From contig JAHWKY010000021.1 of NCBI GenBank assembly GCA_019347575.1, forward strand, positions 1-64,000: a stretch of 64,000 nucleotides of DNA. Reading direction: 5' to 3'. Source of the DNA: Actinomycetota bacterium (lineage in GTDB: Bacteria > Actinomycetota > Nitriliruptoria > Nitriliruptorales > Nitriliruptoraceae). Made by a program: the position numbers and the translations under genes. A model generated the notes under the pieces. It made no database searches. It was not told the DNA's origin and saw only the letters and a list, made by a program, of their open reading frames with translations. Below are positions 3,416-20,974 of this stretch, piece by piece. Position 1 is the first letter of the stretch; each line of letters begins with the position of its first letter.

Positions 3416-3416
3416 C

Positions 3417-5456: not shown

Positions 5457-5494
5457 CGACATCCACCTGTCGTCGGCCCCTCGTGAGGGGTCGG

Positions 5495-6679
5495 TCACTG
5501 CAGCCCGAGCAGCTGCAGCGCGTTGCCGCGGACGATCTTCTCCGTGGTCACGGGATCGAGGTGCTCCGTCTGCTTCTTCGCGACCTCGAGCGAGTCCGGC
5601 CAGTTCGAGTCTGAGTGGGGGTAGTCGGTCTCGAAGATGACGTTGTCCGCACCGATGGCGTCGAGGTTGTCGAGCCCGAACGCGTCGCTGAAGAACGTGC
5701 ACCAGATGTGGTCGGGGAAGTAGGTGCTGGGAGGCTCGGGGATCTTGCCGCGCACCTCGTTCCAGCCGCGGTTGTGCTCCCACACCTCGTCGGCGCGCTG
5801 CAGGAAGTAGGGGATCCAGCCGATCTGGCACTCCGCGAGACCCAGCTTGATGTTCGGGAACTGGATGAACAACCCCGAGAAGAGCCAATCGACCATGCAC
5901 ATCGCGGAGTTGACCGCCGGCAGCGAGTTCTGGACCGCGTTCGGGGCGTCCGAGGACGTGACGGGCAACTGCGAGCTGGACCCGATGTGGACCATGATCG
6001 CCGTCTCGGTCTCCTCGCAGGCGGCGAAGAACGGGTCCCAGTGGTCGCCGTGGATGGACGGCAGGCCGAGCTTGGCCGGCATCTCGGAGAAGCACATCGC
6101 GTGCATCCCCTTCTCCGCCATGCGGTGCACCTCAGCGGCCGCAAGGTCCGCGTCCCACAGCGGGATGATCCCCAGCGGGATGAGGCGACCGTCGGAGCCT
6201 GCGCACCACTCCTCGACGATGAAGTCGTTGTAGGCCTCGACGCACAGGCGCGCAAGCTCCCTGTCCTGGCCCTGCAGGAAGCGCTGGCCACAGAAGCGGA
6301 TGAAGAGGTTCGGGAAGCACAGGGACCGGTCGATGCCGGCCACATCCATGTCCTCGAGCCGTGCCTTGGGCTGGTAGCAGCCGGGGCGCATCTCGTCGAA
6401 GGTCATGACGTCCATCGTGACGTCGTCGAGCGAGTAGCCGACCGCCGCGCCGGGGATCGTGGCTGGCACGCGCACGTCCTCGTAGTACCACACGTCGGCC
6501 CACCGACCCTCGTCCGTCTGCTCGTAGTGGAAATCGCCCTCGCGGAGCGCGACCTCCCCCTTCTCGCGCACGACCCGCGGCGCCACGTCCTGGTACTTCG
6601 CGGGCAGCCGGCTGGTCCACAGATCCGCGGGCTCGACGACGTGATCATCGGCCGAGACGATGAGCGGGAAGTCTCCCAT
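5495..6679 (-). CDS. Amidohydrolase family 2 (TIM-barrel metal-dependent hydrolase)
   Basis: 394 residues from ATG 6679. The N-terminal LIVSADDHVVEPADLW strand resembles amidohydrolase-2 proteins, with D-D-H in place of the usual D-x-H metal pair. MVHIGSSSQLP mid-protein and VIFETDYPHSDSNWP near residue 355 supply the later barrel ligands, including the C-terminal catalytic Asp. Proteins of this group act as decarboxylases or C-C/C-N hydrolases. It heads the operon with HyuA, HyuB and MFS, behind a TTGACG-N17-TATCTA promoter. The substrate is unknown; a ring-opening or decarboxylation step before or after HyuAB is a reasonable guess. Confidence 0.85.
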   Translation of the reverse strand: MGDFPLIVSADDHVVEPADLWTSRLPAKYQDVAPRVVREKGEVALREGDFHYEQTDEGRWADVWYYEDVRVPATIPGAAVGYSLDDVTMDVMTFDEMRPGCYQPKARLEDMDVAGIDRSLCFPNLFIRFCGQRFLQGQDRELARLCVEAYNDFIVEEWCAGSDGRLIPLGIIPLWDADLAAAEVHRMAEKGMHAMCFSEMPAKLGLPSIHGDHWDPFFAACEETETAIMVHIGSSSQLPVTSSDAPNAVQNSLPAVNSAMCMVDWLFSGLFIQFPNIKLGLAECQIGWIPYFLQRADEVWEHNRGWNEVRGKIPEPPSTYFPDHIWCTFFSDAFGLDNLDAIGADNVIFETDYPHSDSNWPDSLEVAKKQTEHLDPVTTEKIVRGNALQLLGLQ

Positions 6680-6715
6680 GCTGACCCCTGTCCGTAGCTC
6701 TACGAATGATTATCA

Positions 6716-6744
6716 TAGATACACGCTCGTTGCTTCGGCGTCAA
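6716..6744 (-). promoter_or_regulatory. Promoter of the amidohydrolase-hyuAB operon
   Basis: On the minus strand TTGACG (6739-6744) is followed after 17 bases by TATCTA (6716-6721). Just downstream, CTATGATAATCATTCGTAG (6699-6717) contains the inverted repeat ATGAT-T-ATCAT. It also resembles the complement of the TAACCATTAGCATAG operator at 16462. The -35 box shares the wider TTGACGCC context seen at 14107, 16439 and 38696. Confidence 0.55.
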
Positions 6745-6786
6745 CCCTCGCGCCTCAGGAGCGTCGAATCGAACCGGAGGTGCAGC

Positions 6787-7533
6787 ATGGTCACCCAGCC
6801 GCGAGCCGCACGTCCGTGGGTCGTGACCGGAGCCGCGTCGGGCATGGGCCACGAGCTGGCACGAACCCTGACCGCGGAGGGCGTCCGGGTGCACGCGTGG
6901 GACCGGGACCCGGTCCCGGCCGCGGCTGGTGGCGGCGTCGCGGTCGACCTCGCCGATCCAGAGCAGATCGTGGCCGCCGCCGCACGCGTCGAAGGGCCGC
7001 TGGCCTGCCTCGCCCACTGCGCCGGCGTGCTCCTGCCGACCTCCATCGACGATCACACCGCCGCCACGCACCTGCGCACGAGCCTCGAGGTCCACTGCAC
7101 CTCGCTGCTGCTCGCGACCCAGGCCCTGCGCGATCGGCTGCGCAACGGCGGCAGCATCGTTGCGGTGACCTCGGTCGCCACCACGGTCGGGTACCGGGGC
7201 TCACTCGCCTACGGGCCATCGAGGGCGGCTCTGGCACGCCTCGTACAGCAGCTAGCGGTGGATCTCGCCCCCGATGGCATCCGAGTGAACGCCGTCTCCC
7301 CAGGGGCGGTGCGTACACCCATGACCGCCCACCTCTGGAGCGACGCCGAGGCCGACGCTCGACGCCAGCACAGCGTGCCCATCCCCCGACGCGCCGATCC
7401 CGGCGAGGTCACCACGGTCATCCGCTTCCTCGCCTCCAACGCGGCGAGCTACATCACCGGCACCGAGGTCCGCGTCGACGGCGGCTTCGTCGCCGCCCTG
7501 TCGCGCCCCGGCGGTCACACCGTCACCTCCTGA
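6787..7533 (+). CDS. SDR-family oxidoreductase with Lys-to-Arg change in the active site
   Basis: 248 residues from ATG 6787, chosen because GGAGG ends six bases before it; an upstream in-frame ATG at 6706 lacks a ribosome site. The Rossmann motif is TGAASGMG near residue 13. The catalytic serine is in AVTSVA. The tyrosine motif reads YGPSRAAL where the classical form is YxxxK, so lysine is replaced by arginine. The C-terminal SNAASYITGTEVRVDGG is typical of 3-oxoacyl reductase-like SDRs. It is divergent from the amidohydrolase operon and convergent with the first UGSC gene. The Arg may keep some activity or mark a different function; the substrate is unknown. Confidence 0.85.
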   Translation: MVTQPRAARPWVVTGAASGMGHELARTLTAEGVRVHAWDRDPVPAAAGGGVAVDLADPEQIVAAAARVEGPLACLAHCAGVLLPTSIDDHTAATHLRTSLEVHCTSLLLATQALRDRLRNGGSIVAVTSVATTVGYRGSLAYGPSRAALARLVQQLAVDLAPDGIRVNAVSPGAVRTPMTAHLWSDAEADARRQHSVPIPRRADPGEVTTVIRFLASNAASYITGTEVRVDGGFVAALSRPGGHTVTS

Positions 7534-7552
7534 CGACGACGGCACGTCGTCG
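7534..7552. terminator. Hairpin between convergent genes
   Basis: CGACGAC-GGCAC-GTCGTCG forms a perfect 7-bp stem with a 5-base loop directly after the SDR stop and just before the stop of the convergent UGSC gene. No T-run is present. It probably acts as a bidirectional terminator or mRNA end. Confidence 0.5.
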
Positions 7553-7555
7553 CGC

Positions 7556-9160
7556 TCAAGCCCACGGGACAGTCAGGGCGGTGAGCACGTCGATGGCGAC
7601 GCGCTCCGCCTCCGCGCGGAGGTCATCGTCGCCGAGCGGAGCAAGTGGGTGACGGACCACGACGACGGGGAAACCCTCCGCCCCGCGAGCCGCGGCGGTG
7701 GCGTCGGCGAGTCCGTGGAACGGCTCGGTGACCACGACGACGGCGGGCACCCCGTGTCGCTCGAGCTCGACGGCGTCGCGCACACTGCACGACGTGCACG
7801 CGCCTCAGTCACCGACGCCGCTGATGACGAGACGCGATCGCGCCGCGACGGAGCCGGTAGTGGTGGCATCCAGCGGACGGGCCGACGTCGGCTTGGTCAC
7901 CAGCTCGATCTCGCCGATAGCCCGCAGGTGCTCAGATAGGGCCTCCCCCAGGTACCGGAGGAACCGCGCCGCTCCGGGCTTGCTGTTGTCGATAAGCGCG
8001 AGCGCGGACCCGGACGCGACCTCGTCGCGGGGGGCGGGCTGGACGAGCTCGGGTGTCGGCTCGGCCACGACCGGGATGACGATCTCGGCCACCGAGCCGC
8101 CCTGCTGCGCGGGGAGGTGATCGGGGGCGTGAGGCGTATCGACCCGGCGCGTCACGACGGCCGAGCCCGAGTGCCGCTTGGGCGCCCAGGCGGGGAGGAA
8201 GGCCGACCAGCCGGGGCCGGCTCCGCCGGCCGTCACTAGGAGCAGGTCTGCTCGGCTCTCGACGACAGGCAGCAGGCCGTCATCGCCGCGCAGGTCGAGC
8301 TGATCGTCCTCGAGCACGACCCCCGCCCTGCGCAGCGCCTCCGGCGACACCCGGCTCGCCATCGCGAGCGCATCGCCCACGCGCGAACGGTCCCAGCCCG
8401 CCCGGGCGAACGCCGCCGCGTGCTCCGGGCCGAGGACGACCACGCCCTGCCCGGCCTTGCCGACGGCGAACCTGGCGGGGTCGGCCATCGCGGTCGCGAT
8501 GGTCGCGACGAGCGCGTCAGGGTCCGCGCTCAGGTGGTTCCCGATCTGCCGCGGGCCCTCGGTCCCGAGCAACGTCACCGTCGTTTCCGACGGGGCGTGG
8601 CCGAGGGCTTCACGCAGCGTCGACCATCCCGAGGGAGGCGGGGACTCGACGACGACCAGCGTGTACTGGCCCGGGTGCCCGATCGACGTCCCATCCCGCT
8701 CGCCGGGTCGCGCACCGAGGACGTTGCGAGCGATCAGGCGGAGGGCACGACCGATGGTCGCGTTGGCGCGGTTGCCCGGCCCCAGCGCGGCTGGGCCCGC
8801 GTTCATCCCCACCGCTGCCGAGATCGGTCCGCTCACAACGAGGCACAGCGCCGCCCCGCCCGTACTGCTGACGACCGTCTCGACGTTGAACCCGGGGTCG
8901 AGCATGGCGTCGACGGCGGCCGCCACGACGGTCAGGTGCTCGGTCCTGCATCCCGCCATGACCGCGTTGGAGACCAAGCGATCGGCGGTCAGCGTGCGGT
9001 CACCGACCGTGCCCAGGACGGTCGCAGGTTCGAGTCCGAGTGCCTCGAGACCGACGTCCACGCGCTGGCGCGTGGGCGGGATGACGGGGAGGCCGTCGGT
9101 CCAGCCCCGCTGGAACAACTCCTCCTGGGCCGCGCCGGCGCCGACACTGATCGTGTCCAC
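7556..9160 (-). CDS. Selenoprotein: large unnamed domain fused to C-terminal UGSC-type domain (in-frame TGA = Sec452)
   Basis: From the GTG at 9160 the frame runs to TGA 7805-7807 and continues without another stop to 7556, 534 residues in all. Residues about 10-330 are a large domain opening with QRGWTDGLPVIPPT, with SNAVMAGC, and GPGNRANATIGRALRLI; the same domain occurs at 9163 and 16499. From about residue 375 a UGSC-type domain follows: ALIDNSKPGAARFLRYL, then GVGDUGACTSCSVRDAVELE, with U for TGA. ERHGVPAVVVVTEPF and PFG-like tail sequence follow after it. Homology to two paralogues on both sides of the TGA, with D before it and G-(A/S)-C-T-S after it, supports selenocysteine. It is the last gene of a six-gene operon with AtuA-like and acid-CoA ligase genes. 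The reaction is unknown; a redox or thiol/selenol catalyst is inferred. Confidence 0.82.
7772..7804 (-). promoter_or_regulatory. Candidate SECIS hairpin after the TGA of the first UGSC gene
   Basis: The 33 bases directly after the TGA can fold into a stem of about 12 pairs, GGCG/CGCC at the base and CGUGCACG/UGUGCGCG above, with one bulged A and an 8-base loop. A bacterial SECIS is expected just here. The loop starts about 13 bases after the TGA, slightly closer than the 16-37 usually quoted, and a smaller GCAC-GUC-GUGC hairpin competes with it. Confidence 0.4.
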
Positions 9161-9162
9161 GG

Positions 9163-10254
9163 TCAGGTCGCGTCGAGGCGGGAGAGGTGCTCGGTCAGCA
9201 CCGGGCGGGTGACGCTCCGCGTGGCCCCCCAGGAGTGCACGCACGAGGAGTGCTTGCCAGGCCCCCCGGCCACGACGATCACCAGGTCCTCGGGCTCGCG
9301 CACGACGGGCAGCAGCGCGTCCTCGTCGACCGCGTAGAACCACTCCGGCCACCACTGCATCCCCCACATCCCCCCGCGCTTCAGCTCACGCAGGGAGTTG
9401 CGGGCATGCTGGAACAGGAAGCCCTGCACGTCGTTGCGGGTCCACCCCCCGTCGGCGATCGTCGCGGCGTGCTCGGGACACAGCAGCACCAGGATCTCGC
9501 CGCCGTAGTAGACGTTGTTCGATCCGATGGCGCCGATGGTCCCCGCCGCGGTGTGGAGGATCCCCGCGGGCTCGGTGCTGACGTGGTCCTGGATGTTGTG
9601 CGGCGATTCACCACCGAAGACGGTCACGGTGCTGACGTCGGCCGCGAAGCCGCGTTGCACGTGCAGGGGCTCCCACGGGTTGTCCTCCTCGGCCTCGGCC
9701 CCGCAGTAGGTGAACTTCGCCGGGCTACCCTGCGTTGAGCGGTCGGGGTTGGGCGAGCGCGCCCCGCCGATGTTCTGCAGGCACAGGCGCACGGCGCGAC
9801 CGGTCGTGGCGTTGGCCTCGTTGCCGGTACCGAACATCCCCGCCCCGCTGTTGAACCCGGATCCGCGCACGGGCCCGTTGACGAACACGAGCGTGGACAC
9901 GGTGTGCGTGGTGGTCTGTACCGCTTCGAGGTTGAACGCCGGGTCGGCCACGGCGGCGATCGCCGCTACGGCAACGGGGAACCGGTCGGGGCTGCCACCC
10001 GCCATGACTGCGTTGGCCGCGATGTCGGCGAGGGTGGCGCGGCGGTTGCTGGGAGCGAGCGTCGCCACGACGTGGTCCGGTGGTGCGTCGACGGTGGCGA
10101 GCATCGCCTCGACCCTTTCCACGGTCGGGGCGAGCATCGGCAAGCCGTCGGACCAGCCCCGCTCGCGGGCGTACGCCTGGAAGGCCGCGTCGTCGGTGAC
10201 CGCGGTCTCGACGACCTCGAACGGCGCTGATCCCTCCGGTGGGATGTCGCTCAC
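9163..10254 (-). CDS. Stand-alone large domain of the UGSC fusion proteins (function unknown)
   Basis: 363 residues from GTG 10254, with GGGGAGGTGAC directly upstream. It matches the large domain of the flanking fusion along its length: RERGWSDGLPMLAPTVERV, ANAVMAGGSPDRFPV, DPAFNLEAVQTT, VNGPVRGSGFNSGAG, GTGNEANATTGRAVRLCLQNIGG, and DNPWEPLHVQRGF. It lacks any UGSC segment. It is encoded between the stand-alone UGSC protein and the fusion protein, so the two separate proteins together equal the fusion in domain content. I know no assigned activity for this domain. The conserved DGLP, NAVMAG and GRAxRL motifs are candidate ligand-binding sites. Confidence 0.75.
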   Translation of the reverse strand: MSDIPPEGSAPFEVVETAVTDDAAFQAYARERGWSDGLPMLAPTVERVEAMLATVDAPPDHVVATLAPSNRRATLADIAANAVMAGGSPDRFPVAVAAIAAVADPAFNLEAVQTTTHTVSTLVFVNGPVRGSGFNSGAGMFGTGNEANATTGRAVRLCLQNIGGARSPNPDRSTQGSPAKFTYCGAEAEEDNPWEPLHVQRGFAADVSTVTVFGGESPHNIQDHVSTEPAGILHTAAGTIGAIGSNNVYYGGEILVLLCPEHAATIADGGWTRNDVQGFLFQHARNSLRELKRGGMWGMQWWPEWFYAVDEDALLPVVREPEDLVIVVAGGPGKHSSCVHSWGATRSVTRPVLTEHLSRLDAT

Positions 10255-10255
10255 G

Positions 10256-10816
10256 TCACCTCCCCAGATCGCGGACCGCCGGTGGCTGCGACGAGGTCAA
10301 CGCAGCGACGACGCGGTCCACCGCGCCCTCGGCCACCGCGACGACCTCGTCGTGCCGCAGCGAGCCGAACGGGTGCGGGATCACGACCAGGCGTGCGGAG
10401 GTCGCCCCGAGGCGTGCGAGCTCGAACTCCGCCTGCAGCTCGAACGCCTCGCTGACCAGGAGCACCGCCGGAAGGCCGAGCCGCTCGAAGGTGACGATGT
10501 CGCGACAACTGTGCGACGTGCACGCTCCTCAGTCGCCGGTCCCGGTGATGATGCCGCGCGACTTGGCCGCCAACTCGCCCGTGATGGGGCCGCCGTCGAT
10601 GACGGAGTTGGGCTTGCGCCCGTGCACGGCGGACGCCCCGCGCTCGCCGAGCAGGTCGGCGAGCGTGCGCAGGAGCAGACGGGCGTTGTGCTTCGTGTTG
10701 TCCAGGAACCCCAAGGTCGCGCCCTCGATGTCGGGCACGGCGCCGCCCAGGGTCCAGTCCTCGCCGGTGACATCGCGGCCCTCGGGGGAGACGAGACGCA
10801 GGCTCTCAGCGGCCAT
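10256..10816 (-). CDS. Selenoprotein: stand-alone UGSC-type protein (in-frame TGA = Sec96)
   Basis: Start at ATG 10816, where AGGAGG lies 9 bases upstream; a GTG at 10825 would sit against the ribosome site. The frame meets TGA at 10529-10531 and continues to a stop at 10256, 186 residues in all. Before the TGA it reads LGFLDNTKHNARLLLRTLADLLGERG, then GTGDUGACTSHSCRDIVTFE, followed by ERLGLPAVLLVSEAF and VIPHPFGSLRHDEV. The N- and C-terminal halves both match the neighbouring fusion protein, which would be unexpected if the TGA were a true stop. It overlaps the end of the acid-CoA ligase gene, and the gene for the separate large domain follows one base downstream. Role unknown; the U-G-A-C pair could form a selenenyl-sulfide. 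Confidence 0.83.
10499..10517 (-). promoter_or_regulatory. Candidate SECIS hairpin after the TGA of the second UGSC gene
   Basis: GUCGC (10517-10513) pairs with GCGAC (10503-10499) around a 9-base loop ACAGUUGUC that begins 17 bases after the TGA, inside the usual bacterial SECIS window. The stem is only 5 bp and such hairpins are common in GC-rich DNA, so this is suggestive only. Confidence 0.35.
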
Positions 10817-12332
10817 CGACGACACCCTCCTCGGTCAGTCGCTCGCGTAGCTCGATCTTCCTGATCTTGCCACTCGCTGTACGTGGGAACTCGTCCACGA
10901 CGTGGAAGGCCGTCGGGACCTTCAGCTTGGCCAGGTTCGCCACGCAACGCTCGCGCAGCAGGTCGACGTCTAGCTCGCGACCGGCCGTGGGGGCCACGAA
11001 CGCGACGGGGACCTCGCCCCACTCATCGTCGGGACGCGCCACGACCGCCACCTCGGCCACACCCTCGATCTCGCGTATGACGGCCTCGATCTCGCTGGGG
11101 TAGACGTTCACGCCGCCGCTGATCAGCATGTCCTTGGCGCGGTCGACGATCCACACGTACCCGGCCTCGTCCATCCGGCCGAGATCGCCAGTGCGTAGCC
11201 ACCCGTCGATGAGCACCTCAGCGGTGGCCTCGGGGTTGCGCCAGTAGCCGGCCATGAGCTTGTCGCTGCGGACGCACAGCTCCCCCACCTCGCCGGGCGC
11301 GAGATCGCTGCCGTGCTCGTCGCGGATCGCGATCGTGACGCCGGGGACCGGTCGGCCGGCGGACCGCAGCAGCTCGTCGCTGGCGTCGGGGCGGTGCTCC
11401 TCCGGCAACAGCCCGGTCAGGTTCGTCGTCGCCTCGCTCAGCCCGTAGCCCTGGTACATGCCGCCCGGCAGCTCCTCGATGGCGCGCCGGATGAGCGTCA
11501 GGCCGGTGGGTGCGGCCCCGTACACGAGCAGCCGCAGGCTGGAGAGATCGGGACGGTCCCGGTCAGGGACGTCGAGCATCCGGCGAAGCTGGGTCGGCAC
11601 GGCGATGGTCGTGGTCACGCCGTAGCGCTCGATGGCAGCGAGCGCCTCCCCCGCGTCGAACCGAGGCAGGACGACGTGGGTCTGCCCGTCGACGATCATC
11701 GACACCACCCGGGTCCCCGTGGCCGCGTGGTACAGCGGCGTCATGGTCATGAACACGTCGGTGGGGACGAACCGCTGCACCATCGCCATCGTGACGGCGT
11801 TGAAGGTCAGAGCCGCCTGGCTCAGGCAGACACCCTTCGGCCGTCCGGTGGTGCCGCTCGTGTAGATGATCAGGGCGATGTCGGAAGCGCTCGCCCGTGA
11901 AGCCAGCGACGGCTCCTCGGCCCGCGCGAGCATCTGCTGGTAGTCGGTGCTGTCCGTCGCGATGAGCGGGATCGAGTCGTCGAGCACGCTCGCCAGGATC
12001 TCGACGTAGTTGGGGTCAGCGAGCGCGAACGACGGGGCGGCATCCTCGACGATGTGCACGATCTCGGGCGCGGCCAGGCGCGTGTTGACGGGCACCGCTG
12101 CCGCGCCGGCGTAAGCACACGCGAGGTAGGCGTCGAACGGGGTGAGGCTGTTGCCGGCCATCACCACGACGCGGTCGCCCGCGGTCACGCCGCGGTCGAT
12201 CAGCGCGGTCGCCAGACCACCCACCCGGGCGCGGAGCTGGCGGTAGGTGACGGCCGGACCATCGACGATGACGACCGCCGGCTCGTCCGCGTACAGCCGG
12301 GCGTCGCGGTCGAGCAGGTCCCCGATGCGCAT
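10806..12332 (-). CDS. AMP-forming acid-CoA ligase (ANL superfamily)
   Basis: 508 residues from ATG 12332 (MRIGDLLDRDARLYADEPAV). The P-loop is IIYTSGTTGRPKGV near residue 155. Further marks are MYQGYGLSEAT (A5), GWLRTGDLGRMDEAGYVWIVDRAKDMLISGGVNVYPSEIE (A7-A8), and SGKIRKIELR with the catalytic lysine near the C-terminus. It activates a carboxylic acid to an acyl-CoA in the cytoplasm. It lies between the AtuA-like pair and the UGSC genes, which implies that the operon handles an acid or its CoA thioester. The acid is not identifiable. Confidence 0.93.
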   Translation of the reverse strand: MRIGDLLDRDARLYADEPAVVIVDGPAVTYRQLRARVGGLATALIDRGVTAGDRVVVMAGNSLTPFDAYLACAYAGAAAVPVNTRLAAPEIVHIVEDAAPSFALADPNYVEILASVLDDSIPLIATDSTDYQQMLARAEEPSLASRASASDIALIIYTSGTTGRPKGVCLSQAALTFNAVTMAMVQRFVPTDVFMTMTPLYHAATGTRVVSMIVDGQTHVVLPRFDAGEALAAIERYGVTTTIAVPTQLRRMLDVPDRDRPDLSSLRLLVYGAAPTGLTLIRRAIEELPGGMYQGYGLSEATTNLTGLLPEEHRPDASDELLRSAGRPVPGVTIAIRDEHGSDLAPGEVGELCVRSDKLMAGYWRNPEATAEVLIDGWLRTGDLGRMDEAGYVWIVDRAKDMLISGGVNVYPSEIEAVIREIEGVAEVAVVARPDDEWGEVPVAFVAPTAGRELDVDLLRERCVANLAKLKVPTAFHVVDEFPRTASGKIRKIELRERLTEEGVVDGR

Positions 12333-12337
12333 CGGCG

Positions 12338-12682
12338 CTACTGATCGAGACGCAGGGTGATGTCGTCGGGGACCTCGACCTCGAACGCCAGCATCAACGA
12401 CGCGTAGGCCTTGCCGTGGGTGTCGAGCGCCAGCGAGCGCGACACCCCCCCGCCGAGGGCCTCGGTCAGGACGAAGTTGAGCGCCGAGATCCCGGAGAAC
12501 TCGTAGCGCGTGACGTCGCCGCGCACCAGCGGACCGAAGTGCTCGCGCACCCGGTCGACGGTGAGCTGCTCCTTGAGCAGGTCGAGGTGCTGGGGTTCGT
12601 AGGGCACCACGCCGACGTTGGACGTGTTGCCCTTGTCGCCCGAGCGGACGAACGCGATCTCGCGCAGCTGCACGGTGCGCAT
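12338..12682 (-). CDS. Small AtuA C-terminal-domain-like protein
   Basis: 114 residues. LREIAFVRSGDKGNTSNVGVVPYEP at the start and a GVSRSLALDTHGKAYASLMLAFEV ending match the C-terminal domain found fused to, or encoded beside, AtuA-type (DUF1446) proteins. The gene follows the AtuA-like gene by three bases, so the two products probably form one functional unit. In citronellol/geraniol catabolism AtuA is needed for acyclic terpene use, but its biochemical step is not established. Confidence 0.82.
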   Translation of the reverse strand: MRTVQLREIAFVRSGDKGNTSNVGVVPYEPQHLDLLKEQLTVDRVREHFGPLVRGDVTRYEFSGISALNFVLTEALGGGVSRSLALDTHGKAYASLMLAFEVEVPDDITLRLDQ

Positions 12683-12685
12683 GGA

Positions 12686-14026
12686 TCAGCCCTCCAGGAT
12701 GTCGACGGTGACGGAAACGTCCTCGCGCGGGACCAGCGCCGAGTACATCGCCAGGACCGGCTTGACGGTCTTGCGGACCCCTCCGCCCGCGGCCGACCCG
12801 AAGTAGACGAACTCGACCTCCTGCGCCACGGCCGCCGCCGCTTCCTCGGTGTTGCAGCGAGCCGCCAACCGCAGTCGGACCTCCCACGGCTCGGGTGCGT
12901 CCGCGGGGGTCGCGTCCCCGTGCACCGAGTTGAGCCCGATGTAGTCGATCCGCAGCTCCTCGGTGACGACGCCGTCGTGGGCGAGGCGCTTGGTGACGGT
13001 GTCCGCGGCGAGCTGGGCTCGGCTGAGCGCTCCTGGCCCGGCGAAGCTGACCTCACCCTCGCCGGTGAAGCCCTCGCGGACGCCCACGAGCACCTTGAGC
13101 GTGTCGGGGCGGGCGCGGCCACGAGCGCCCTGGACGAAGACGTGGTCGTGCGACTTCTGCTCCAGGGTGACCTCGCGCATGTCGACGGTGAGGTCTGGCG
13201 TCAGGTAGGTGGACGGATCGTGGATCTCGTAGACCAGCTGCGCCTTGCAGTTCTCGACGTCCACCGCTCCTCCCGTCCCGGGCAGCTTCCAGATGGTGGA
13301 GGTGCCATCGGGGTAGACGTCGGCGATGGGCAGCCCGAGGTTCCACAGGTCGGGGACCATCCGGTAGGGCGGGTCGGCGAAGTTGCCGCCGCTTCCGTGG
13401 GTCCCGCACTCGAGGAGGTGGCCAGCGACCTGGCCGCCGGCGAGCAGATCCCAGTCGTCGAGCGGCCACTCGAACTCGAACGCGGCCGGTGCCAGGAACA
13501 GCGACGGGTCCGCGATGCGCCCCCCGACGATCACGTTCGCGCCTCGACGCAACGACTCGATGATCGGGTCGATGCCGATGTACGCGTTGGCGCTGACGAG
13601 GCCGTAGTCCATCTCCGAGGGACGCTTGCCGTTGGAGAGCCGAAGGTCGCGCTCGAGCACGTACTCGAGGACGTCGTCGCCGGTGATGGCGGCCACCTTC
13701 GTGTCCGGGTGGCCGAGTTCGGCCAGGAGCTCCTTGGTGCGCCGGGCACCGGCCGCGGGGTTGGCGGCCCCCATGTTGGCGATGAAGGTGATGCCGCGCT
13801 CGACCGCGGGTGCCGTCAGCTCGCGCACGAGGCGGTCGAGGCGGATGTCGTAGCCCTTGTCGGGATCTTCCAGCCGTCGCAGCTGTGCATGCACCAGCGT
13901 GCGCTCGGCCAGGCAGTCGAGGGCGAGGTAGTCGAGCTCACCCTGCTCGACCAGATCGACTGCCGGCTCGATGCGATCCTCCGCGTAGGCGGATCCACAG
14001 CCGATCCGCACCCGTCCCTCGCTCAT
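12686..14026 (-). CDS. AtuA-like acyclic terpene utilization family protein (DUF1446)
   Basis: 446 residues. The N-terminus VRIGCGSAYAEDRIEPAVDLVEQGELDYLALDCLAERT, the FIANMGAANPAAGARRTKELL segment, and the NVIVGGRIADPSLFLAPAAFEF and GGQVAGHLLECGTHGSGGNFAD segments are characteristic of the AtuA family. It is the first gene of the six-gene operon that ends with the UGSC proteins, behind a TTGACG-N16-TACTAT promoter. Many actinobacterial members are linked to catabolism of branched acyl-CoAs in general, so a terpene substrate is possible but not shown here. Confidence 0.88.
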   Translation of the reverse strand: MSEGRVRIGCGSAYAEDRIEPAVDLVEQGELDYLALDCLAERTLVHAQLRRLEDPDKGYDIRLDRLVRELTAPAVERGITFIANMGAANPAAGARRTKELLAELGHPDTKVAAITGDDVLEYVLERDLRLSNGKRPSEMDYGLVSANAYIGIDPIIESLRRGANVIVGGRIADPSLFLAPAAFEFEWPLDDWDLLAGGQVAGHLLECGTHGSGGNFADPPYRMVPDLWNLGLPIADVYPDGTSTIWKLPGTGGAVDVENCKAQLVYEIHDPSTYLTPDLTVDMREVTLEQKSHDHVFVQGARGRARPDTLKVLVGVREGFTGEGEVSFAGPGALSRAQLAADTVTKRLAHDGVVTEELRIDYIGLNSVHGDATPADAPEPWEVRLRLAARCNTEEAAAAVAQEVEFVYFGSAAGGGVRKTVKPVLAMYSALVPREDVSVTVDILEG

Positions 14027-14086
14027 GACCGCCTCCTTCGGGGCCCGTCCGGCGTGCCCGACCCAACTCCGCTATCTAGGCGATTC

Positions 14087-14114
14087 ATAGTAATTGATTC
14101 TGCGACGGCGTCAA
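14087..14114 (-). promoter_or_regulatory. Promoter of the atuA-like/UGSC operon
   Basis: On the minus strand TTGACG (14109-14114) and TACTAT (14087-14092) are separated by 16 bases, in a short AT-rich island within a GC-rich region. The -35 is in the shared TTGACGCC context. The CTATGAATCGCCTAG just downstream partly resembles the operator-like sequence at 6699. Confidence 0.5.
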
Positions 14115-14123
14115 CCCCGCACC

Positions 14124-14921
14124 TCAGGCGCCGCCGAGCCAACCGGTCGCCGTGAGGCCGCCGTCCACCGGGAACACCCCGCCGGTGATCCACGAGGCAT
14201 CGTCGCTGAGCAGGAACAGTGCCACCTGGGCCACATCGACGGGTCGGCCCAGGCGGCCGAGGGCCAGCCGCGAGGCGGCGAGCTCGAGGCGCGCCGTGAT
14301 CTCGTCCTCGCTCGCCGTGCCCCGTGCGTACAAGCGCTCCACCAGCGGGGTCCGCACGGTCGCGGGGCAGATGGCGTTCACGCGCACGCCGTGACGTCCC
14401 AGATCGACCGCCATCTGCCGGGTCAACGCGACGACGCCGCCCTTGGCGGCGGAGTAGGCCGCGGTGTCGGGAGTGCCCACGATGCCGGAGACGCTCGCGG
14501 TGAACAGGATCGCTCCGGCCCCCCGGTCGAGCATCGTCGGAAGAACAGCACGCGCCGTCAGCCATGCCCCGGTGAGGTTGACCGCCAGGACGCGGTTCCA
14601 GCGCTCGAACTCGACGTCGGCGGCCGACCCCGGCCCGGGGATACCGGCGTTGGCATGTACCGCGTCGAGCCGACCGTAGGCCTGCAGCGTCAGGCCGACC
14701 ATGCGCTGGGTGGCAGCCTCGGAGCTGACGTCCACCTCGACCGCGATCGCGTCGCCGCCACCCTCGGTGGCCACTGCCTCCGCCGTGCTCTCCGCGGCCG
14801 CGACGTCGATGTCGGCACACGCGACGCGCGCGCCCTCCCGACCGAACAGGACCGCGACCGCACGGCCGATGCCCGAGCCCGCTCCGGTGACGAGCGCGAC
14901 CTTGTCGGTCAGACGGTTCAC
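14124..14921 (-). CDS. SDR-family oxidoreductase
   Basis: 265 residues, classical SDR. TGAGSGIG lies at residues 12-19, the acidic ACADID after strand 2 suggests NAD(H), the NAG motif reads HANAG, and the catalytic residues are Ser in TASVSG and the motif YSAAKGG (Tyr, Lys). The C-terminus has DDASWITGGVFPVDGG. It overlaps the start of the gene downstream of the epimerase by ATGA coupling and is third in a three-gene operon with an AhpD-like protein and an epimerase. Substrate unknown; a hydroxyacyl or alcohol dehydrogenase is usual in such clusters. Confidence 0.9.
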   Translation of the reverse strand: MNRLTDKVALVTGAGSGIGRAVAVLFGREGARVACADIDVAAAESTAEAVATEGGGDAIAVEVDVSSEAATQRMVGLTLQAYGRLDAVHANAGIPGPGSAADVEFERWNRVLAVNLTGAWLTARAVLPTMLDRGAGAILFTASVSGIVGTPDTAAYSAAKGGVVALTRQMAVDLGRHGVRVNAICPATVRTPLVERLYARGTASEDEITARLELAASRLALGRLGRPVDVAQVALFLLSDDASWITGGVFPVDGGLTATGWLGGA

Positions 14922-15847
14922 GGCTCCTCCTCGTCGTCGGGACCGTGGGTCCGGAGTTCCTCGATCACGACCGCCACCATCTGCTCCAGGGTCCTCGGCG
15001 TGAGGTCGAAGTCGGAGTCCGCCGCGGTGGCGTCCACCTCGGGCAGCGAGGGCCGCGTCCCGCCGGTGAACCGGATGTCCGCGTCGGGGACGACCGCGCG
15101 TGCGGCATCGGCGAGATCGGCCAGCGACGTGTAACGGCCCCCAGCGTGGTAGAAGGGTCGCCCCGTCGGACGCAGCACCGCACCTACGAGCATCGCGGCG
15201 ACCTCACGCACGTGGCGCAGCGGCAGCGACCACCTCGGCTCCGCCGGCACGATCGCCGGCTCGCCACGCGCGACGCACGTCAACAGGTGCAGGTGCGGCG
15301 CGGCGTCGGGGGCCAGGCCCCTCCGTCCCACCCCGAGCGTCCCGGCGATGGCGACGACCGTCGCGTCGAGCCCGCGGTTGCGGCGGGCGAGGTCGATGTG
15401 GAACTCCGCGGCGAGCTTGTGCGCCCCGTAGAGGTTGCGCGGCGCAGGGTGGTCGCCACCCGTGTGCGGCAACCCCCACCCCGCCTGGCGCGTGATGGAC
15501 GACGCGAACACCAGGCGCGCCACGTCCTCGACGTGACACGCCTCGAGGACGTTGCTGGTCCCCATCACGTTGACCGCGGCGGCGCGGTGCGGGTCGGCGT
15601 CGGTGCGGACCCCGATCAGCGCAGCCAGGTGGATGACCCGCCGGATGCGGTTGGAGGCCACGGCGTACCGGATCGCGGCGAGGTCACGGACATCACCCTC
15701 GACGTGCACGGCACCGGCGTCGGCCGGTGCGACCGGGTCGAACACGACCGCGGTGTGGCCCCGGTGCCGCAGCTCGGAGACGACCGCCCGGCCGATGAGC
15801 CCGGAACCGCCCGTGACCAGGACCGCCTCGCCGCCGCCGGAGCTCAC
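14918..15847 (-). CDS. NAD(P)-dependent epimerase/dehydratase-type (extended SDR) protein
   Basis: 309 residues from GTG 15847, which overlaps the stop of the AhpD-like gene (GTGA); the longer open frame upstream is antisense. VLVTGGSGLIGRAVVSELRHRG is the nucleotide-binding motif, the catalytic motif is LYGAHKLAAEFH (Tyr, Lys), and IHLAALIGV and FASSITRQAG are in the expected places. Extended SDRs act on sugar nucleotides, but also on steroids and hydroxy-acyl compounds. In this catabolic setting a 3-beta-hydroxysteroid-type or aldehyde/alcohol dehydrogenase role is as likely as sugar epimerisation. Confidence 0.85.
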   Translation of the reverse strand: MSSGGGEAVLVTGGSGLIGRAVVSELRHRGHTAVVFDPVAPADAGAVHVEGDVRDLAAIRYAVASNRIRRVIHLAALIGVRTDADPHRAAAVNVMGTSNVLEACHVEDVARLVFASSITRQAGWGLPHTGGDHPAPRNLYGAHKLAAEFHIDLARRNRGLDATVVAIAGTLGVGRRGLAPDAAPHLHLLTCVARGEPAIVPAEPRWSLPLRHVREVAAMLVGAVLRPTGRPFYHAGGRYTSLADLADAARAVVPDADIRFTGGTRPSLPEVDATAADSDFDLTPRTLEQMVAVVIEELRTHGPDDEEEP

Positions 15848-16419
15848 CTCGGCTCGAGCCCGAACGCGCGCAGGACGTGGGGGACCATCCCGCCCCACCA
15901 CCCGACGGTGAAGGCGAGGTCGAGCGCGCCCTCGCGCCCCCACGCCGTCGCCGCTGCCGCCCACTCCTCGTCGCCCCACCGCTCGCCGGCGTGGAGCCGC
16001 CGGCACAGCCTCAAGGCCAGCCGCTGCTCGTCGTCGAAGGGCGCGTCGGCATCGTCGACCGTCCCGGCGCGCAGAGCCATCAGCTGCTCCTGCGACAGAC
16101 CGGCCGCGCGAGCGGCCTCGTGGTGGGTCGCCCACTCGTAGGCGGAGCCCTCCTCCACGCCGAGCCACAGGATCACGAGTTCGCGGACCGCCGCGGGCAG
16201 GTGACCGCGGTGGATGAGAGCGTTCGCCAGCAGCACGAAGGGTCGGAACGCGTCGGGAGCGTTGGCCACCAGCCGCAGGACCGTCAGGTCCTGGTCACTG
16301 GACTCCAGTTTGCCGAGGACGCGGCTGACCTCGCCGTCCGTGTCCGCCGACGAGCGCAACGGCAGGTCGCCCGACCAGGTCCAGTCTCCGTCGATCGACA
16401 CGACCGCCTCCTCGCTCAC
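15844..16419 (-). CDS. Carboxymuconolactone decarboxylase/AhpD-like protein
   Basis: 191 residues. The helix pattern LLANALIHRGHLPAAVRELVILWLGVEEGSAYEWATHHEAARAAGLS matches the CMD/AhpD fold, with the conserved Glu and His of YEWxxHHxxA, but the CxxC pair of true AhpD peroxidase partners is absent. Such single-domain proteins often accompany catabolic clusters; some are decarboxylases or isomerases, many are uncharacterised. It is first in the operon with an epimerase and an SDR. Its start lies 79 bases from the divergent third UGSC gene, so both may share the control region at 16439-16479. Confidence 0.8.
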   Translation of the reverse strand: MSEEAVVSIDGDWTWSGDLPLRSSADTDGEVSRVLGKLESSDQDLTVLRLVANAPDAFRPFVLLANALIHRGHLPAAVRELVILWLGVEEGSAYEWATHHEAARAAGLSQEQLMALRAGTVDDADAPFDDEQRLALRLCRRLHAGERWGDEEWAAAATAWGREGALDLAFTVGWWGGMVPHVLRAFGLEPR

Positions 16420-16438
16420 GGCCCATACGCGCCCGTAC

Positions 16439-16479
16439 TTGACGCCTCGGCTATTCTAGGCTAACCATTAGCATAGTCT
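16439..16479 (+). promoter_or_regulatory. Promoter and palindromic operator before the third UGSC gene
   Basis: TTGACG (16439-16444), 17 bases, then TAACCA (16462-16467). The -10 lies within TAACCATTAGCATAGTCT (16462-16479), a partial TAACCAT-N4-ATrGTTA palindrome. The whole stretch is nearly identical to 38696-38736: both read TTGACGCCTC, two bases, CTATTCTAGG, one base, TAACCATT, one base, GCATAGT. Such conservation 22 kb apart implies a shared regulator. Confidence 0.65.
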
Positions 16480-16498
16480 CTCTGCGGGAGGGTGCCGG

Positions 16499-18127
16499 AT
16501 GGCATCGATCACGGTTCGCAACCCCGTGGCGCTCACGGCCACGCCCAACGATCCCCCAGCCAAGCGGCCGCCGTCGCTGGACGGCCTGACGCTCGGTCTG
16601 TGGTGGAACGAGAAGCCGGGCGGCGAGGTCGCGCTCGAGCACGCCGGGGCGCGGTTCGCCGAGCGGTTCGACGTGGCGCTGCACGAGCGCTACCAGAACT
16701 TCCCGGCGCCGACCGAGAACATCGACGAGGCGGCCCTGAAGGCCGACGTGGTGATCGGCGCCACCGGCGATTGAGGGTCCTGCACCTCTTGGCTGATCCA
16801 CGACCTGATCGAGATCGAACGTCGTGGAACGCCAGCTGCGGCGGTCGTCGCAGCCGAGTTCGAAGAAGACGCCAAGGCCAGCGCCATCGCCTTCGGCATG
16901 CGGGACCTCCCCATCATCGTGGTGCCACGGTGCCTGACCAACCTCGGCCACGACACCGTCCGTACCTACGTGGACGACGCTCTGGACGAGTTGATCTCTG
17001 CCCTGTCCCGTGACAGCGAAGCACGCGCCGCCGGCGTGCTGATCGAGCCCGACCCCGAGGAGGCGAACCTGACCTACAGCGGAGGTGACCTGCTGGAGGC
17101 AGCGCAGGCGTTCCAGGACGACTACCTCGACCGTGGATGGGGGGACGGGTTCCCGCTGATCCCGCCGACGGACGAGAAGGTCGAGGCGATGTTCGCGGCG
17201 ACGCCGCTCGCGCGTGACCACGTCGTGGCCGCACTGCAACCTGGCCTGGGCGCGGCGACCGTGGAGAAGCTCGCGGTCAACGCGGTGATGGCCGGGTGCA
17301 GGCCCGAGCACCTGCCCGTGCTCATCGCCGCGGTCGAGGCGATGAGCGATCCGGTGTTCAACCTGCGCGACGTCGCGATGTCGACCGGCCCTCACGCCCC
17401 GCTGATCGTCATCAACGGACCGATCGCCCGCGAGCTCGGCGTCAACTCCGGGCGGGGAGCACTCGGTCCCGGCCGCCAGTCGCGCGTGAACACGGTCATC
17501 GGTCGCGCGCTTCGCCTGATCCTGATGAACGTCGGCAAGTGCTACCTCGAGATCCTCGACCTCGACACGATCGGGTCACCGAAGAAGTACGGCATGTGCC
17601 TGGCCGAGAACGAGGCCGCCAGCCCGTGGGTTCCGCTGCACGTGGAGCGTGGGTTCGACGGGGACGACAACATCGTCACGGTCTTCAGCGTCGAGTCCGA
17701 GATCGAGGTCTACGACTTCTACAACTACCACGCCGAACCGCTGCTGCGCACCTTCGCGGGAACGGCCACCAGCTCGGGCGCCTGCTCGGTGCAGCTGTCG
17801 TTCCACAACCGCCCCGAGATGCACAACTTGATCCTGCTCGCCCCCGAGCACGCCGAGGTGTTCGCGAACGACGGCTGGGACAAGGAGCGCATCCGCCAGG
17901 AGCTGTTCACCACGGCCCGGCGGGAGTGGAGCTGGATCGGGGCGGCGCAGGATCCCCAGAGCGTGCGCAAGGAGTGGAAGTGGGTCGTCGACCAGCCGGA
18001 CCAGCTCGTGCCCGTCACACGTGACCCACGCTTCTTCCACGTCTGCGTCGTGGGTGGTGCCGCGGGCAAGAGCCAGTACCTCACCGGCTTGGGTGCGCCG
18101 GCGAGCCGACCGATCCTCACCCCTTGA
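16499..18127 (+). CDS. Selenoprotein: N-terminal UGSC domain fused to large domain (in-frame TGA = Sec92)
   Basis: From ATG 16499 (GGGAGG upstream) the frame meets TGA at 16772-16774 and continues to 18127, 542 residues in all. Around the TGA it reads IGATGDUGSCTSWLIHDLIE, the literal U-G-S-C motif, then IERRGTPAAAVVAAEFEEDA. The part before the TGA has a LGLWWNEKPGG strand in the place where paralogues have LGFLDNTK. Residues about 200-540 are the large domain: LDRGWGDGFPLIPPT, NAVMAGCRPEHLPVL, DPVFNLRDVAMSTG, NGPIARELGVNSG, and SPWVPLHVERGF. Domain order is opposite to the fusion at 7556. The operon continues with an Nfu-like scaffold and an SDR. Function unknown. Confidence 0.84.
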
Positions 18128-18164
18128 TGCTCGACCCGACCATGACCCATCCAGGAGACGACCG

Positions 18165-18407
18165 ATGACCGAGGCTCAGGTCCGCACCGCCGTCGACGCC
18201 ATCGCGATGTCCGTGCGTGCGGACGGTGGCGACCTGCAGCTGCTCGGCTACGACGACGAGCGCAAGGTCGCCCGCGTTGGCTACGACCTCGACAGCTCGT
18301 GCGACGTGTGCGTGCTCACGCCCGACCAACTCGGCCAGCTCTTGGGCACGGCGCTCGAGCGGCAAGCGCCCGAGGTCACCCTTGAACTCAGCCAGCTCGA
18401 GACGTGA
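18165..18407 (+). CDS. Nfu/NifU C-terminal-like small scaffold protein
   Basis: 80 residues from ATG 18165 with AGGAGA upstream. It has the NifU C-terminal layout: VRADGGDLQLLGY, a strand, then SSCDVCVLTPDQLGQLL with the CxxC pair, and QAPEVTLEL at the end. Canonical Nfu domains hold an Fe-S cluster between two such subunits. Placed between the UGSC selenoprotein and an SDR, with its stop overlapping the SDR GTG start, it may load or accept a cofactor for the UGSC protein rather than serve general Fe-S assembly. That link is inference from position. Confidence 0.78.
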   Translation: MTEAQVRTAVDAIAMSVRADGGDLQLLGYDDERKVARVGYDLDSSCDVCVLTPDQLGQLLGTALERQAPEVTLELSQLET

Positions 18408-19150
18408 CTCCGACCCCGCCACCGCGTGACCAGGTGGCCCTCGTCACGGGTGGCTCGCGGGGCATCGGTCGCGGCGCGGCGGAACGCTTGGCCGAGAACC
18501 ACGCGACGGTCGTGATCTCGTACCGGCAGGACGAGGCGGCCGCCCGCGATGTCGTCCGATTGGTGCAGTGGCACGGCGCTGCCGGGGACGCCATCACGGT
18601 CGACCTCGCCGAGCCCGCGGCAGGCGTGGCGTTGGTCGAAGCGGTGCTCGAGCGGCACGGTCGCATCGACTCGGTCGTCAACAACGCGGGCATCGCCGAG
18701 CGTCACTCCCTGACGGAGCTCTCCGAGGACGTCTGGCACCGGACGCTCGCGATCAACCTCTCGGCGCCCTTCGCCATCCTGCGCCGGGCGGCGCTCGCCA
18801 TGATCGAGGGCGACGGCGGCTCCATAGTCAACGTCGGATCCCCGGCGTCGCTCAACGGTGGTGTCACCGGGGCGCACTACGCCGCATCCAAGGCCGGCCT
18901 GATCGGCATGACCGTCTCCAGCGCCAAGGAGTTGGCACCTCACGGTGTGCGGGTGAACCTCATCGAGCCCGCGTTCGTCGACACCGACCTCGTCCGCGGT
19001 TTCGTCGCCGACGATCCTGGCCTGACGCTCGTACCACCGCTCGGCCGCCGTGGCGATCCCGCAGAGGTCGGCGCACTCATCGCCTTCCTCTGCTCCCCCG
19101 CCGCGAGCTACGTCACGGGCGCCAGGATCGCCGTGACGGGCGGGGCGTGA
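18404..19150 (+). CDS. SDR-family oxidoreductase (3-oxoacyl-ACP reductase-like)
   Basis: 248 residues from GTG 18404, overlapping the Nfu-like stop. TGGSRGIG, then ISYRQDE after strand 2 (the Arg suggests NADPH), VNNAGIAERH, VNVGSPASLNGG, YAASKAGLIG (Tyr, Lys) and SPAASYVTGARIAVTGG make a complete classical SDR. It is the last gene of the UGSC3 operon. Substrate unknown. Confidence 0.9.
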   Translation: MTPTPPPRDQVALVTGGSRGIGRGAAERLAENHATVVISYRQDEAAARDVVRLVQWHGAAGDAITVDLAEPAAGVALVEAVLERHGRIDSVVNNAGIAERHSLTELSEDVWHRTLAINLSAPFAILRRAALAMIEGDGGSIVNVGSPASLNGGVTGAHYAASKAGLIGMTVSSAKELAPHGVRVNLIEPAFVDTDLVRGFVADDPGLTLVPPLGRRGDPAEVGALIAFLCSPAASYVTGARIAVTGGA

Positions 19151-19188
19151 CGTCGCCGCAAGAGTCCCCGCGCGCGCAACCGACGCCA

Positions 19189-19284
19189 TGACAGAAACAC
19201 GCATCCACGCGCGTTGTCGTCATCGCCAACGCGACCAACGTCCCTCGGCCTGACGGAAACGCGCATCGACGCGCGTTCTCGTCA
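19189..19284. repeat. Two tandem 34-bp palindromic units in a convergent intergenic gap
   Basis: Units at 19189-19222 and 19251-19284 match at 30 of 34 bases. The second reads TGACGGAAACGCGC, then ATCGA, then CGCGCGTTCTCGTCA-like sequence, so TGACG and AAACGCGC pair with GCGCGTT and CGTCA. Each could form a hairpin. They lie in the 263-base gap between the convergent SDR (ends 19150) and acyl-CoA dehydrogenase (ends 19414). They may be paired terminators or a palindromic repeat family. Nothing else recognisable is in the gap. Confidence 0.65.
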
Positions 19285-19413
19285 TCGGCGCACTTCCGCG
19301 GAAGCGTTTCGCACCATCTTCATCCGGCTGGCTCGGCGCAGGAACCACGGTTGCCGCGCGGGGCGAGTGCCGGCCCACGCCCCGCCCGCGACGACCGTCA
19401 AGCGGGTGACTGG

Positions 19414-20577
19414 TCACCCGCGTTGGCTGAAGGGGCGGCCGAGGAACTCCGACGCGATCCGCAGACGCTGGATGGTCGGCGTGCCGCCGCCGATGGCCCA
19501 ACCGTGCGCGTCGCGATGCATCCGCTCGACCTCGTACTCGGGGTGGTAGCCGTACCCGCCGTGCAGCTGCATCGCGCTGTCCGAGACGCGCTTGGCCATC
19601 TCGTTGGCGAAGCACTTGGCGATGGAGGCCTCGAGTCGATCGGGAGCGCCCCGCCCGGCGCGTCCAGCGGCACGCCAGATGAGGAGCCGCGTCGCCTCGA
19701 CCTGCAGGACCATGTCGGCGAGCTCGGTCTGGACGGTCTGGAACTCGATGAGCTCCTTGCCGAACTGCATCCGCTGCTGGACGTACGCGGCGGTGCGGTC
19801 GAGGCAGGCTTGACCGATGGCGAGGCTCATGGTGGCGTTGCCGAGCCGTTCGACCGAGAACGCCGTGAACAGGTCGCGGAAGCCGCCGGGTCCGACGACG
19901 AGGTTGTCGAGGGGGACGCGCGCCCCGTCGAAGTGCATGTCGGCGGAGGGGATCCCGTGGAAGCCGTGCAGGACCTCCTGGGGGCCGAACGTCAGCCCGG
20001 GGGTGTCGCGGTCGACGACGAGCGCCCCGATCCCTCGTGACCCCGGCTCATCCGTCAGGCGTACGTACACCAGGTACTGCTCGGCGTGCCCAGCACCTGA
20101 ACACCAGCGCTTCGTCCCGTCGACGATCCAGCTGTCGCCGTCGCGTCGCGCCTGGGTCTGCAGGTCGGTGGCCGCGGACCCGGCGTCGGGTTCGGAGATG
20201 GACACCGCCATCGTCACCTCGCCGGCAGCGATGGGCGGCAGCAGGCGCGCCTTCTGCTCGTCGGTGCCGAACAGGTCGATGACGCGCGCCGGTCCGGTGT
20301 TGGACTCGAAGACCGTGAACGCCGCGATCTGGTTGCGCTTGGCCAGCTCCTCGATCACGAGCAGCGCGTCGAGAAGGCCCTGCCCGCTACCGCCGTGCTC
20401 CTCGGGCAGGCAGATGCCGAGGAACCCCAGTTCCGCGAGCCGGCCTCGCTCAGCGTCCGGCAGCGGAGTCGCAGCAGCGTCCCACTCGATCGCGAGGGGG
20501 GCATAGACGTCGACAGCGACCTTGGCTGCGGTGGCGCGGAACGCCTCCTGGGTCTCGGTGAGGGCGAACTGGATCAC
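19414..20577 (-). CDS. Acyl-CoA dehydrogenase
   Basis: 387 residues from GTG 20577, chosen because GGAGG lies just before it and the protein then starts IQFALTETQEAFRATAAKVA. FAD-binding and active-site marks: VSISEPDAGSAATDLQTQA, WIVDGTKRWCSGAG, and AMQLHGGYGYHPEYEVERMHRDAHGWAIGGGTPTIQRL. The Glu of the MCAD-type base position (here IGGGT) is absent, but AFSVERLGNA carries the Glu used as base in isovaleryl-CoA-type enzymes. It oxidises an acyl-CoA to the 2-enoyl-CoA and passes electrons to ETF. It is the last gene of the acyl-CoA mutase operon. Confidence 0.92.
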   Translation of the reverse strand: MIQFALTETQEAFRATAAKVAVDVYAPLAIEWDAAATPLPDAERGRLAELGFLGICLPEEHGGSGQGLLDALLVIEELAKRNQIAAFTVFESNTGPARVIDLFGTDEQKARLLPPIAAGEVTMAVSISEPDAGSAATDLQTQARRDGDSWIVDGTKRWCSGAGHAEQYLVYVRLTDEPGSRGIGALVVDRDTPGLTFGPQEVLHGFHGIPSADMHFDGARVPLDNLVVGPGGFRDLFTAFSVERLGNATMSLAIGQACLDRTAAYVQQRMQFGKELIEFQTVQTELADMVLQVEATRLLIWRAAGRAGRGAPDRLEASIAKCFANEMAKRVSDSAMQLHGGYGYHPEYEVERMHRDAHGWAIGGGTPTIQRLRIASEFLGRPFSQRG

Positions 20578-20578
20578 G

Positions 20579-20974
20579 TCATCCTCCGGTCGCTGGCTCG
20601 AACCAGAACGGCACGCCACCGTTTCCCTCTTCGGCGAGTCGGAGCGTGACCGGCAGCGGGACGACGTCCTCCTCCGATAGCCCCCGTACGTGCCCGAACA
20701 CCTGCACCCCGCCGAGCTCGACCAGTCCCACGTCGTACGGAGGCGGCAGCCCCTCGACCGGCACCCACACGCGTGCCCACGTCTTGAGCGTTCCCGCCGG
20801 TGGGAGGTCGTACGCGTCGATCTCGTCGCTCCCGCACCGGGGACACACGGCACGACGCGGCCAGGTCGCCATGCCACAGCCAGCGCACCGACCACCCACT
20901 AACACGCCGGCCTCGGGGTCGATCCGGGGCCGCGCCCCGAAGTCGTCCGCGTGGAGTGCCCGTTCGAGGCTCAC
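20579..20974 (-). CDS. Zinc-ribbon/OB-fold thiolase-accessory protein (DUF35 type)
   Basis: 131 residues from GTG 20974, overlapping the thiolase stop. A rubredoxin-like zinc ribbon CAGCGMATWPRRAVCPRCG (residues about 29-47) is followed by an OB-fold with LKTWARVWVPVEGLPPPYDVGLVEL and VFGHVRGL. Such proteins bind thiolase-like enzymes and are needed for their activity or channel CoA substrates; the gene sits directly after the SCP-x-type thiolase, the standard arrangement in steroid and branched-acid degradation clusters. Confidence 0.9.
   Translation of the reverse strand: MSLERALHADDFGARPRIDPEAGVLVGGRCAGCGMATWPRRAVCPRCGSDEIDAYDLPPAGTLKTWARVWVPVEGLPPPYDVGLVELGGVQVFGHVRGLSEEDVVPLPVTLRLAEEGNGGVPFWFEPATGG

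Follow-up and report, generated by a model that had tools for sequence, protein, structure and literature searches.

Why should one genome keep the same two protein modules as separate neighboring genes and, at the same locus, fused to each other in both possible orders? This question is raised by a 64,000-nucleotide stretch of a Nitriliruptoraceae genome (Actinomycetota; contig JAHWKY010000021.1, positions 1 to 64,000; hereafter the window), in which four genes carry three UGSC modules (PF24696) and three copies of a large domain (LD) of about 350 residues (Table 1). The initial annotation had described this arrangement, and every gene that it named was found again in its place. The genome (4.9 Mb, 98.8% complete) contains exactly three UGSC modules and three LDs, all inside the window, and the three LDs share 35-42% pairwise identity.

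Partnership of the UGSC module and the large domain

The collection scan for LD yielded at least 569 relatives, which among the matches listed come from Chloroflexi, Betaproteobacteria, Rokubacteria, Tectomicrobia, Binatota, actinomycetes and others; partnership counts were taken from the best 80 loci. Because these loci, which are related by descent, were picked by LD alone, the count of UGSC partners is not circular: UGSC is fused or adjacent to 103 of the 108 LD copies. In 45 cases the two form a UGSC-LD fusion, in 43 UGSC lies just upstream and in 15 just downstream; only five copies lack a nearby UGSC, and three of these are flagged near a contig end. Moreover, a survey of 66 genomes of the same class found both modules in 14, LD only in one and neither in 51 (Fisher P=2e-13), and the distances of the two modules correlate in a mirror-tree comparison (r=0.84; permutation maximum 0.11). 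The initial annotation had taken the modules for two parts of one enzyme and had named their failure to co-occur in other genomes as the result that would speak against this; the counts of 103/108 copies and 14/66 genomes clearly point the other way. Since co-occurrence elsewhere is very strong, sequence comparison identifies UGSC and LD as near-obligate partners and as two parts of one selenocysteine (Sec) enzyme, which is built either as a single chain or from two chains encoded side by side. The arrangement itself is labile, with 19 architecture changes on a tree of 131 LDs that includes the copies of the class and the window, among which the order LD-then-UGSC occurs in this window only. 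At one locus (L193, G066:C272:1-9224), two genes are LD-LD tandem fusions in a genome of the class without any UGSC.

How much of this is new? UGSC (PF24696/NF041046) is a catalogued selenoprotein family of unknown function, which is found here paired with LD almost without exception, and the main text of a 2008 study presents it as one of the most abundant selenoproteins of aquatic metagenomes and as fused to a conserved domain, 'Unknown_1', that is probably LD (PMC2398784). Consequently, the system is not wholly undescribed, although it had been taken for the best candidate for an undescribed one. However, the family-wide pairing, both fusion orders, the separate-gene form, the fold and the paired paralogues are not reported in that main text, and our literature search found no work that assigns a function to UGSC. 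In the literature consulted, we found no precedent for the near-obligate pairing of the modules, their fusion in either order, the fold, a remote link to GrdB and PrdB, the paired cysteine loss or the expansion described below. With a specific partner and the shape of the pair in hand, an orphan motif protein becomes a testable two-subunit enzyme.

The in-frame UGA codon

Each UGSC module of the window contains one in-frame UGA in the context GD-U-G[A/S]C (3/3 copies), and in all three copies the PF24696 matches flank this codon on both sides. The own-genome search scored the copies at 145, 121 and 115 bits (cut-off 25), which places them in the family; against NF041046, two copies reached 103 and 108 bits, below its equivalog cut-off of 125, the third having been scanned as a partial sequence. 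For the fusion at 16499-18127, the open reading frame predicted with translation table 11 starts at 16898, which lies 3' of the UGA, whereas the true gene start is at 16499. The genome is equipped to read the codon as Sec: it encodes SelA and an adjoining SelB as well as a tRNA-Sec (76.8 bits, cut-off 47; ARAGORN agrees). Within the class, exactly one TGA is present in all 25 UGSC matches above the cut-off, and SelA is found in 13 of the 14 UGSC-bearing genomes (the exception is 71% complete) and in 47 of all 66.

A hairpin at the position expected for a selenocysteine insertion sequence (SECIS) provides a further line of evidence. When 115 Sec-type genes are taken together, a stretch of 45 nt counted from the UGA folds more stably than shuffled sequences (mean z -1.74), whereas a control stretch 60 nt further on is not (mean z -0.03), and the seven Cys-type copies lack the hairpin (z -0.97 to +1.21). 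In the window, the hairpin occupies its customary position in two of the three copies; no copy reaches significance by itself, and only the family-wide test does. These individually insignificant hairpins are what could be held in favor of reading the UGA codons as true stops, with the halves as pseudogenes or separate short proteins. We give this explanation almost no credence, as the reading is conserved before and after the UGA in more than 100 genes, the Sec machinery is present and the hairpin is a property of the family. Together, these data support the Sec dependence predicted for the UGSC modules, and with it the selenium dependence that the initial annotation had proposed.

Fold, remote relatives and a possible mechanism

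The motifs RGWxDGLPxxPPT, NAVMAG and GRAxRL, noticed at the outset in the window, are conserved family-wide, and LD was rightly regarded as a domain without a recognized role: no Pfam or NCBIfam model matches any of 69 members, no PDB sequence matches, and the model of the lone LD at 9163-10254 (predicted local distance difference test, pLDDT, 90.9) has no counterpart among PDB and viral folds at E < 1e-3. Weak resemblances to class I fumarases and cyclic amide hydrolases (TM-score ≤0.34) were not used, and a GrdE/PrdA-type pyruvoyl subunit was rejected (profile P 0.29 against GrdE; no such Pfam match in the 69 LDs), as was an iron-sulfur protein, there being merely two conserved cysteines. 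Among the residues that are invariant or nearly so are Asp36, Cys87, Arg153, Glu187 and Trp194 (numbering of the 9163 product, which itself has Gly87). Of the 69 LDs, 67 have Cys87 and 57 have Cys184; in the larger set of 131 LDs, both are found in 100.

The window copies differ at these two positions: The fusion at 16499-18127 has Cys/Cys, the lone LD Gly/Cys and the adjacent LD-UGSC fusion Cys/Val, so that the two adjacent LDs have lost complementary cysteines. Together with the LD-LD tandem fusions, this suggests that LD acts as a dimer, which in the window would be a heterodimer. A ten-member clade of UGSC-LD fusions without the second cysteine, whose loci also have a Cys/Cys LD, is not independent evidence, because those loci were picked for their Cys/Cys copy. 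The cysteines of LD and of the UGxC motif might instead be ligands of a selenium- or metal-handling protein and not catalysts, as the NifU-like gene directly after 16499-18127 and the weak resemblance of LD to class I fumarases would allow; yet a typical 4Fe-4S site would need more than the two conserved cysteines, metal-resistance genes are absent from the top neighbors, and we judge this very improbable.

For the UGSC half, we turned to an AlphaFold2 model of 16499-18124 (79-row alignment; pLDDT 93.7), in which a predicted TM-score (pTM) of 0.94 indicates confident relative placement of the two halves. The UGSC half is flavodoxin-like and matches flavodoxin-like domains of the flavodiiron type (E 2.6e-4), with which it shares the fold at 8% identity, the Sec motif being a feature of UGSC. 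The thioredoxin-like fold that the main text of the 2008 study had supposed for UGSC (PMC2398784) was rejected: The fold matches listed are flavodoxin-like or other alpha/beta folds, none of them thioredoxin. This bears on a rival explanation, in which UGSC is a Sec peroxidase or thiol-disulfide oxidoreductase and LD a docking or recognition domain whose cysteines serve as resolving thiols. The UxxC motif, the two conserved LD cysteines, the CMD/AhpD-like gene that heads the operon and the fold assumed in 2008 would all suit such an enzyme. We nevertheless consider it unlikely, since the modeled fold is a different one, and since solute-binding and CoA-transferase neighbors, together with 19 to at least 150 copies in several genomes (see below), fit substrate-specific catabolism better than antioxidant defense.

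By profile comparison, UGSC is a remote neighbor of the GrdB and PrdB selenoproteins. With hhalign, UGSC scores 37.6 against PrdB-like proteins (P 7e-5) and 36.6 against GrdB (P 1e-4) with Sec aligned on Sec, followed by a helix and a strand, whereas 18 unrelated control families reach at most 21.3; PrdB-like proteins against GrdB served as the positive control (98.6%). PF07355, the GrdB/PrdB family, matches neither the window proteins nor any other protein of the genome. Substrate-specific paralogues are a feature of GrdB (PMC10838667) and may likewise be one of UGSC; GrdB and PrdB, however, have a pyruvoyl partner (GrdE/PrdA), while none is detectable for UGSC. Sec-type PrdB-like proteins (UPxC; L112-L122) occur in genomes that also have UGSC-LD, and as PF07355 ends just before Sec, such genes are easily misread. 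Furthermore, in a candidate Tectomicrobia genome (L123, G043:C39:1500-9000) a Sec GrdB (L111) adjoins GrdE-like and GrdC-like genes, the last two named by eye.

Taking these relationships together, we tentatively favor, at somewhat less than even confidence, a selenol-based, pyruvoyl-free reductive cleavage of small carboxylates or acyl-coenzyme A (acyl-CoA) compounds by UGSC and LD, with 16499-18127 as a self-contained second enzyme. LD would bind the small carboxylate or acyl-CoA and present it to the Sec at a strand end of the flavodoxin-like UGSC. Much as in reductases of the GrdB and PrdB type, the selenolate would then attack and break a bond of carbon to N, O, S or halogen (C-X). A cysteine, either that of UGxC or one conserved in LD, would free the resulting Se-C or Se-X intermediate by forming a selenenylsulfide, which a cellular thiol would finally reduce. 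In the window, the LD at 9163 with its second Cys only, the LD-UGSC fusion with its first Cys only and the lone UGSC would probably form one mixed complex. For glycine and D-proline reductase, a similar scheme that includes a pyruvoyl group has been put forward (PMC10298544), and a GrdB/GrdE relative has been proposed to cleave the C-F bond of fluoroacetate without a Schiff base (PMC10838667).

Several points weigh against the reductive mechanism. Many carriers of UGSC-LD belong to groups usually considered aerobic. LD shows no relation to GrdE, and the hhalign probability of UGSC against GrdB and PrdB is borderline at 57-63%: in view of this and of the missing PF07355 match, the link is a lead and not a membership. 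In addition, the complementary cysteine loss rests on one genome, the neighboring genes vary widely from locus to locus, and the hairpin signal may partly reflect conserved codons (S-W-S-I-H-D).

Neighboring genes, copy number and locus layout

Among 210 neighbor genes scanned, TctC (42), SBP_bac_5 (13) and CoA-transferase III (12) recur, and enoyl-CoA hydratases, thiolases and thiamine-pyrophosphate enzymes are also found. This makes small carboxylates, or the CoA esters of these, the probable substrates. From the linkage to AtuA-like, acid-CoA ligase, SDR and Nfu-like genes, the initial annotation had proposed a redox step in acyl-CoA or terpene-like acid catabolism. The link to AtuA and terpene-like acids finds no support as a general rule: AtuA relatives occur at none of the 80 other LD loci, so that the terpene-acid reading is local to the window operon, and acid-CoA ligase relatives occur at seven, the recurrent neighbors being solute-binding proteins (TctC, SBP_bac_5) and CoA-transferases. 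Within the class, ligases adjoin LD in three genomes.

The CoA-transferases, enoyl-CoA hydratases and acid-CoA ligases among the neighbors could also accompany a non-reductive Sec enzyme (acyl transfer, isomerization or hydrolysis) that uses Sec as a nucleophile and consumes no electrons. Several copies with Cys instead of Sec, as in the cultured carriers Nonomuraea and Sphingomonas formosensis, would be consistent with such an enzyme, as would weak, non-significant fold matches of LD to hydratases and cyclic amide hydrolases. The UGxC pair and the use of selenium favor redox chemistry, however, and the nearest profile relatives are reductases, which makes a non-reductive role improbable in our view.

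The number of copies is consistent with substrate-specific paralogues. Betaproteobacterial metagenome-assembled genomes (MAGs) hold 19-26 LDs each, and a Chloroflexi groundwater MAG, JACPQD (G036, 5.0 Mb; loci L007-L009, L083 and L197-L296), holds at least 150 LDs and at least 150 UGSC modules, about 146 of the latter with an in-frame TGA; several copies adjoin SBP_bac_5 genes. Direct reading covered 1.84 Mb of its about 5.0 Mb (37%) and found 88 UGSC modules, 86 with exactly one TGA, and 87 LDs, 80 of which have no TGA, so that TGA is not generally recoded there. As two contigs of about 350 kb by themselves hold 46 UGSC modules, binning cannot explain the expansion. No Sec machinery was found in the 1.84 Mb of about 5.0 Mb read, and a SelB-like match proved by eye to be initiation factor IF-2. 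In 2016 the largest bacterial selenoproteome comprised 39 genes (PMC5029168); that of JACPQD is possibly the largest known. A genome with at least 150 UGSC copies, about 146 of them bearing a UGA, would alter the view of how large a share of bacterial selenium use is catabolic. The most far-reaching reading, in which UGSC-LD is a new class of pyruvoyl-free Sec reductase with a substrate subunit of new fold, paired paralogues, about 150 substrate-specific selenoenzymes in one genome and the largest selenoproteome known, we regard as rather doubtful.

In the window, the minus-strand genes are tightly packed in the order CMD/AhpD-like, epimerase, short-chain dehydrogenase/reductase (SDR), AtuA, AtuA-ferredoxin, acid-CoA ligase, UGSC, LD and LD-UGSC, with 1-2 nt between the last three, and the UGSC-LD fusion diverges from this run across a gap of about 80 nt.

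Table 1. Genes and sequence features of the UGSC-LD locus, in window positions.
Feature	Position	Strand	Remarks
LD-UGSC fusion (LD first)	7556..9160	-	GTG start at 9160
Hairpin 14-32 nt past UGA, SECIS-like position	7775..7793	-	individually not significant
In-frame UGA, predicted Sec (GD-U-GAC)	7805..7807	-	PF24696 matches both sides
Lone LD	9163..10254	-	first conserved Cys replaced by Gly, second present
Lone UGSC protein	10256..10816	-	
Hairpin 14-32 nt past UGA, SECIS-like position	10499..10517	-	individually not significant
In-frame UGA, predicted Sec (GD-U-GAC)	10529..10531	-	
AMP-binding acid-CoA ligase	10806..12332	-	PF00501, 4e-85; 11-nt overlap with UGSC start
AtuA ferredoxin-like domain protein	12338..12682	-	PF23544
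AtuA-family protein	12686..14026	-	PF07287, 4e-139
SDR	14124..14921	-	
NAD-dependent epimerase/dehydratase	14918..15868	-	
CMD/AhpD-like protein	15844..16419	-	PF02627; first gene of minus-strand run
UGSC-LD fusion (UGSC first)	16499..18127	+	both conserved LD Cys present
In-frame UGA, predicted Sec (GD-U-GSC)	16772..16774	+	weak hairpin only after UGA
NifU-like (Nfu) small protein, 80 aa	18165..18407	+	PF01106, 27 bits, at cut-off
SDR	18404..19150	+	

An Rfam scan of 6000-19500 gave no match. AtuA at 12338-14026 consists of two genes, the main domain and a separate ferredoxin-like domain, and the 80-residue NifU-like gene stands alone, with the UGSC-LD fusion before it and an SDR after it. 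The island lies in a catabolic region: On one side (1577-6679), there are genes for hydantoinase B and A and for an amidohydrolase, and on the other an acyl-CoA dehydrogenase (19414-20574), a thiolase (20971-22224), a methylmalonyl-CoA mutase (22603-25113) and an MmgE/PrpD gene (25016-26263).

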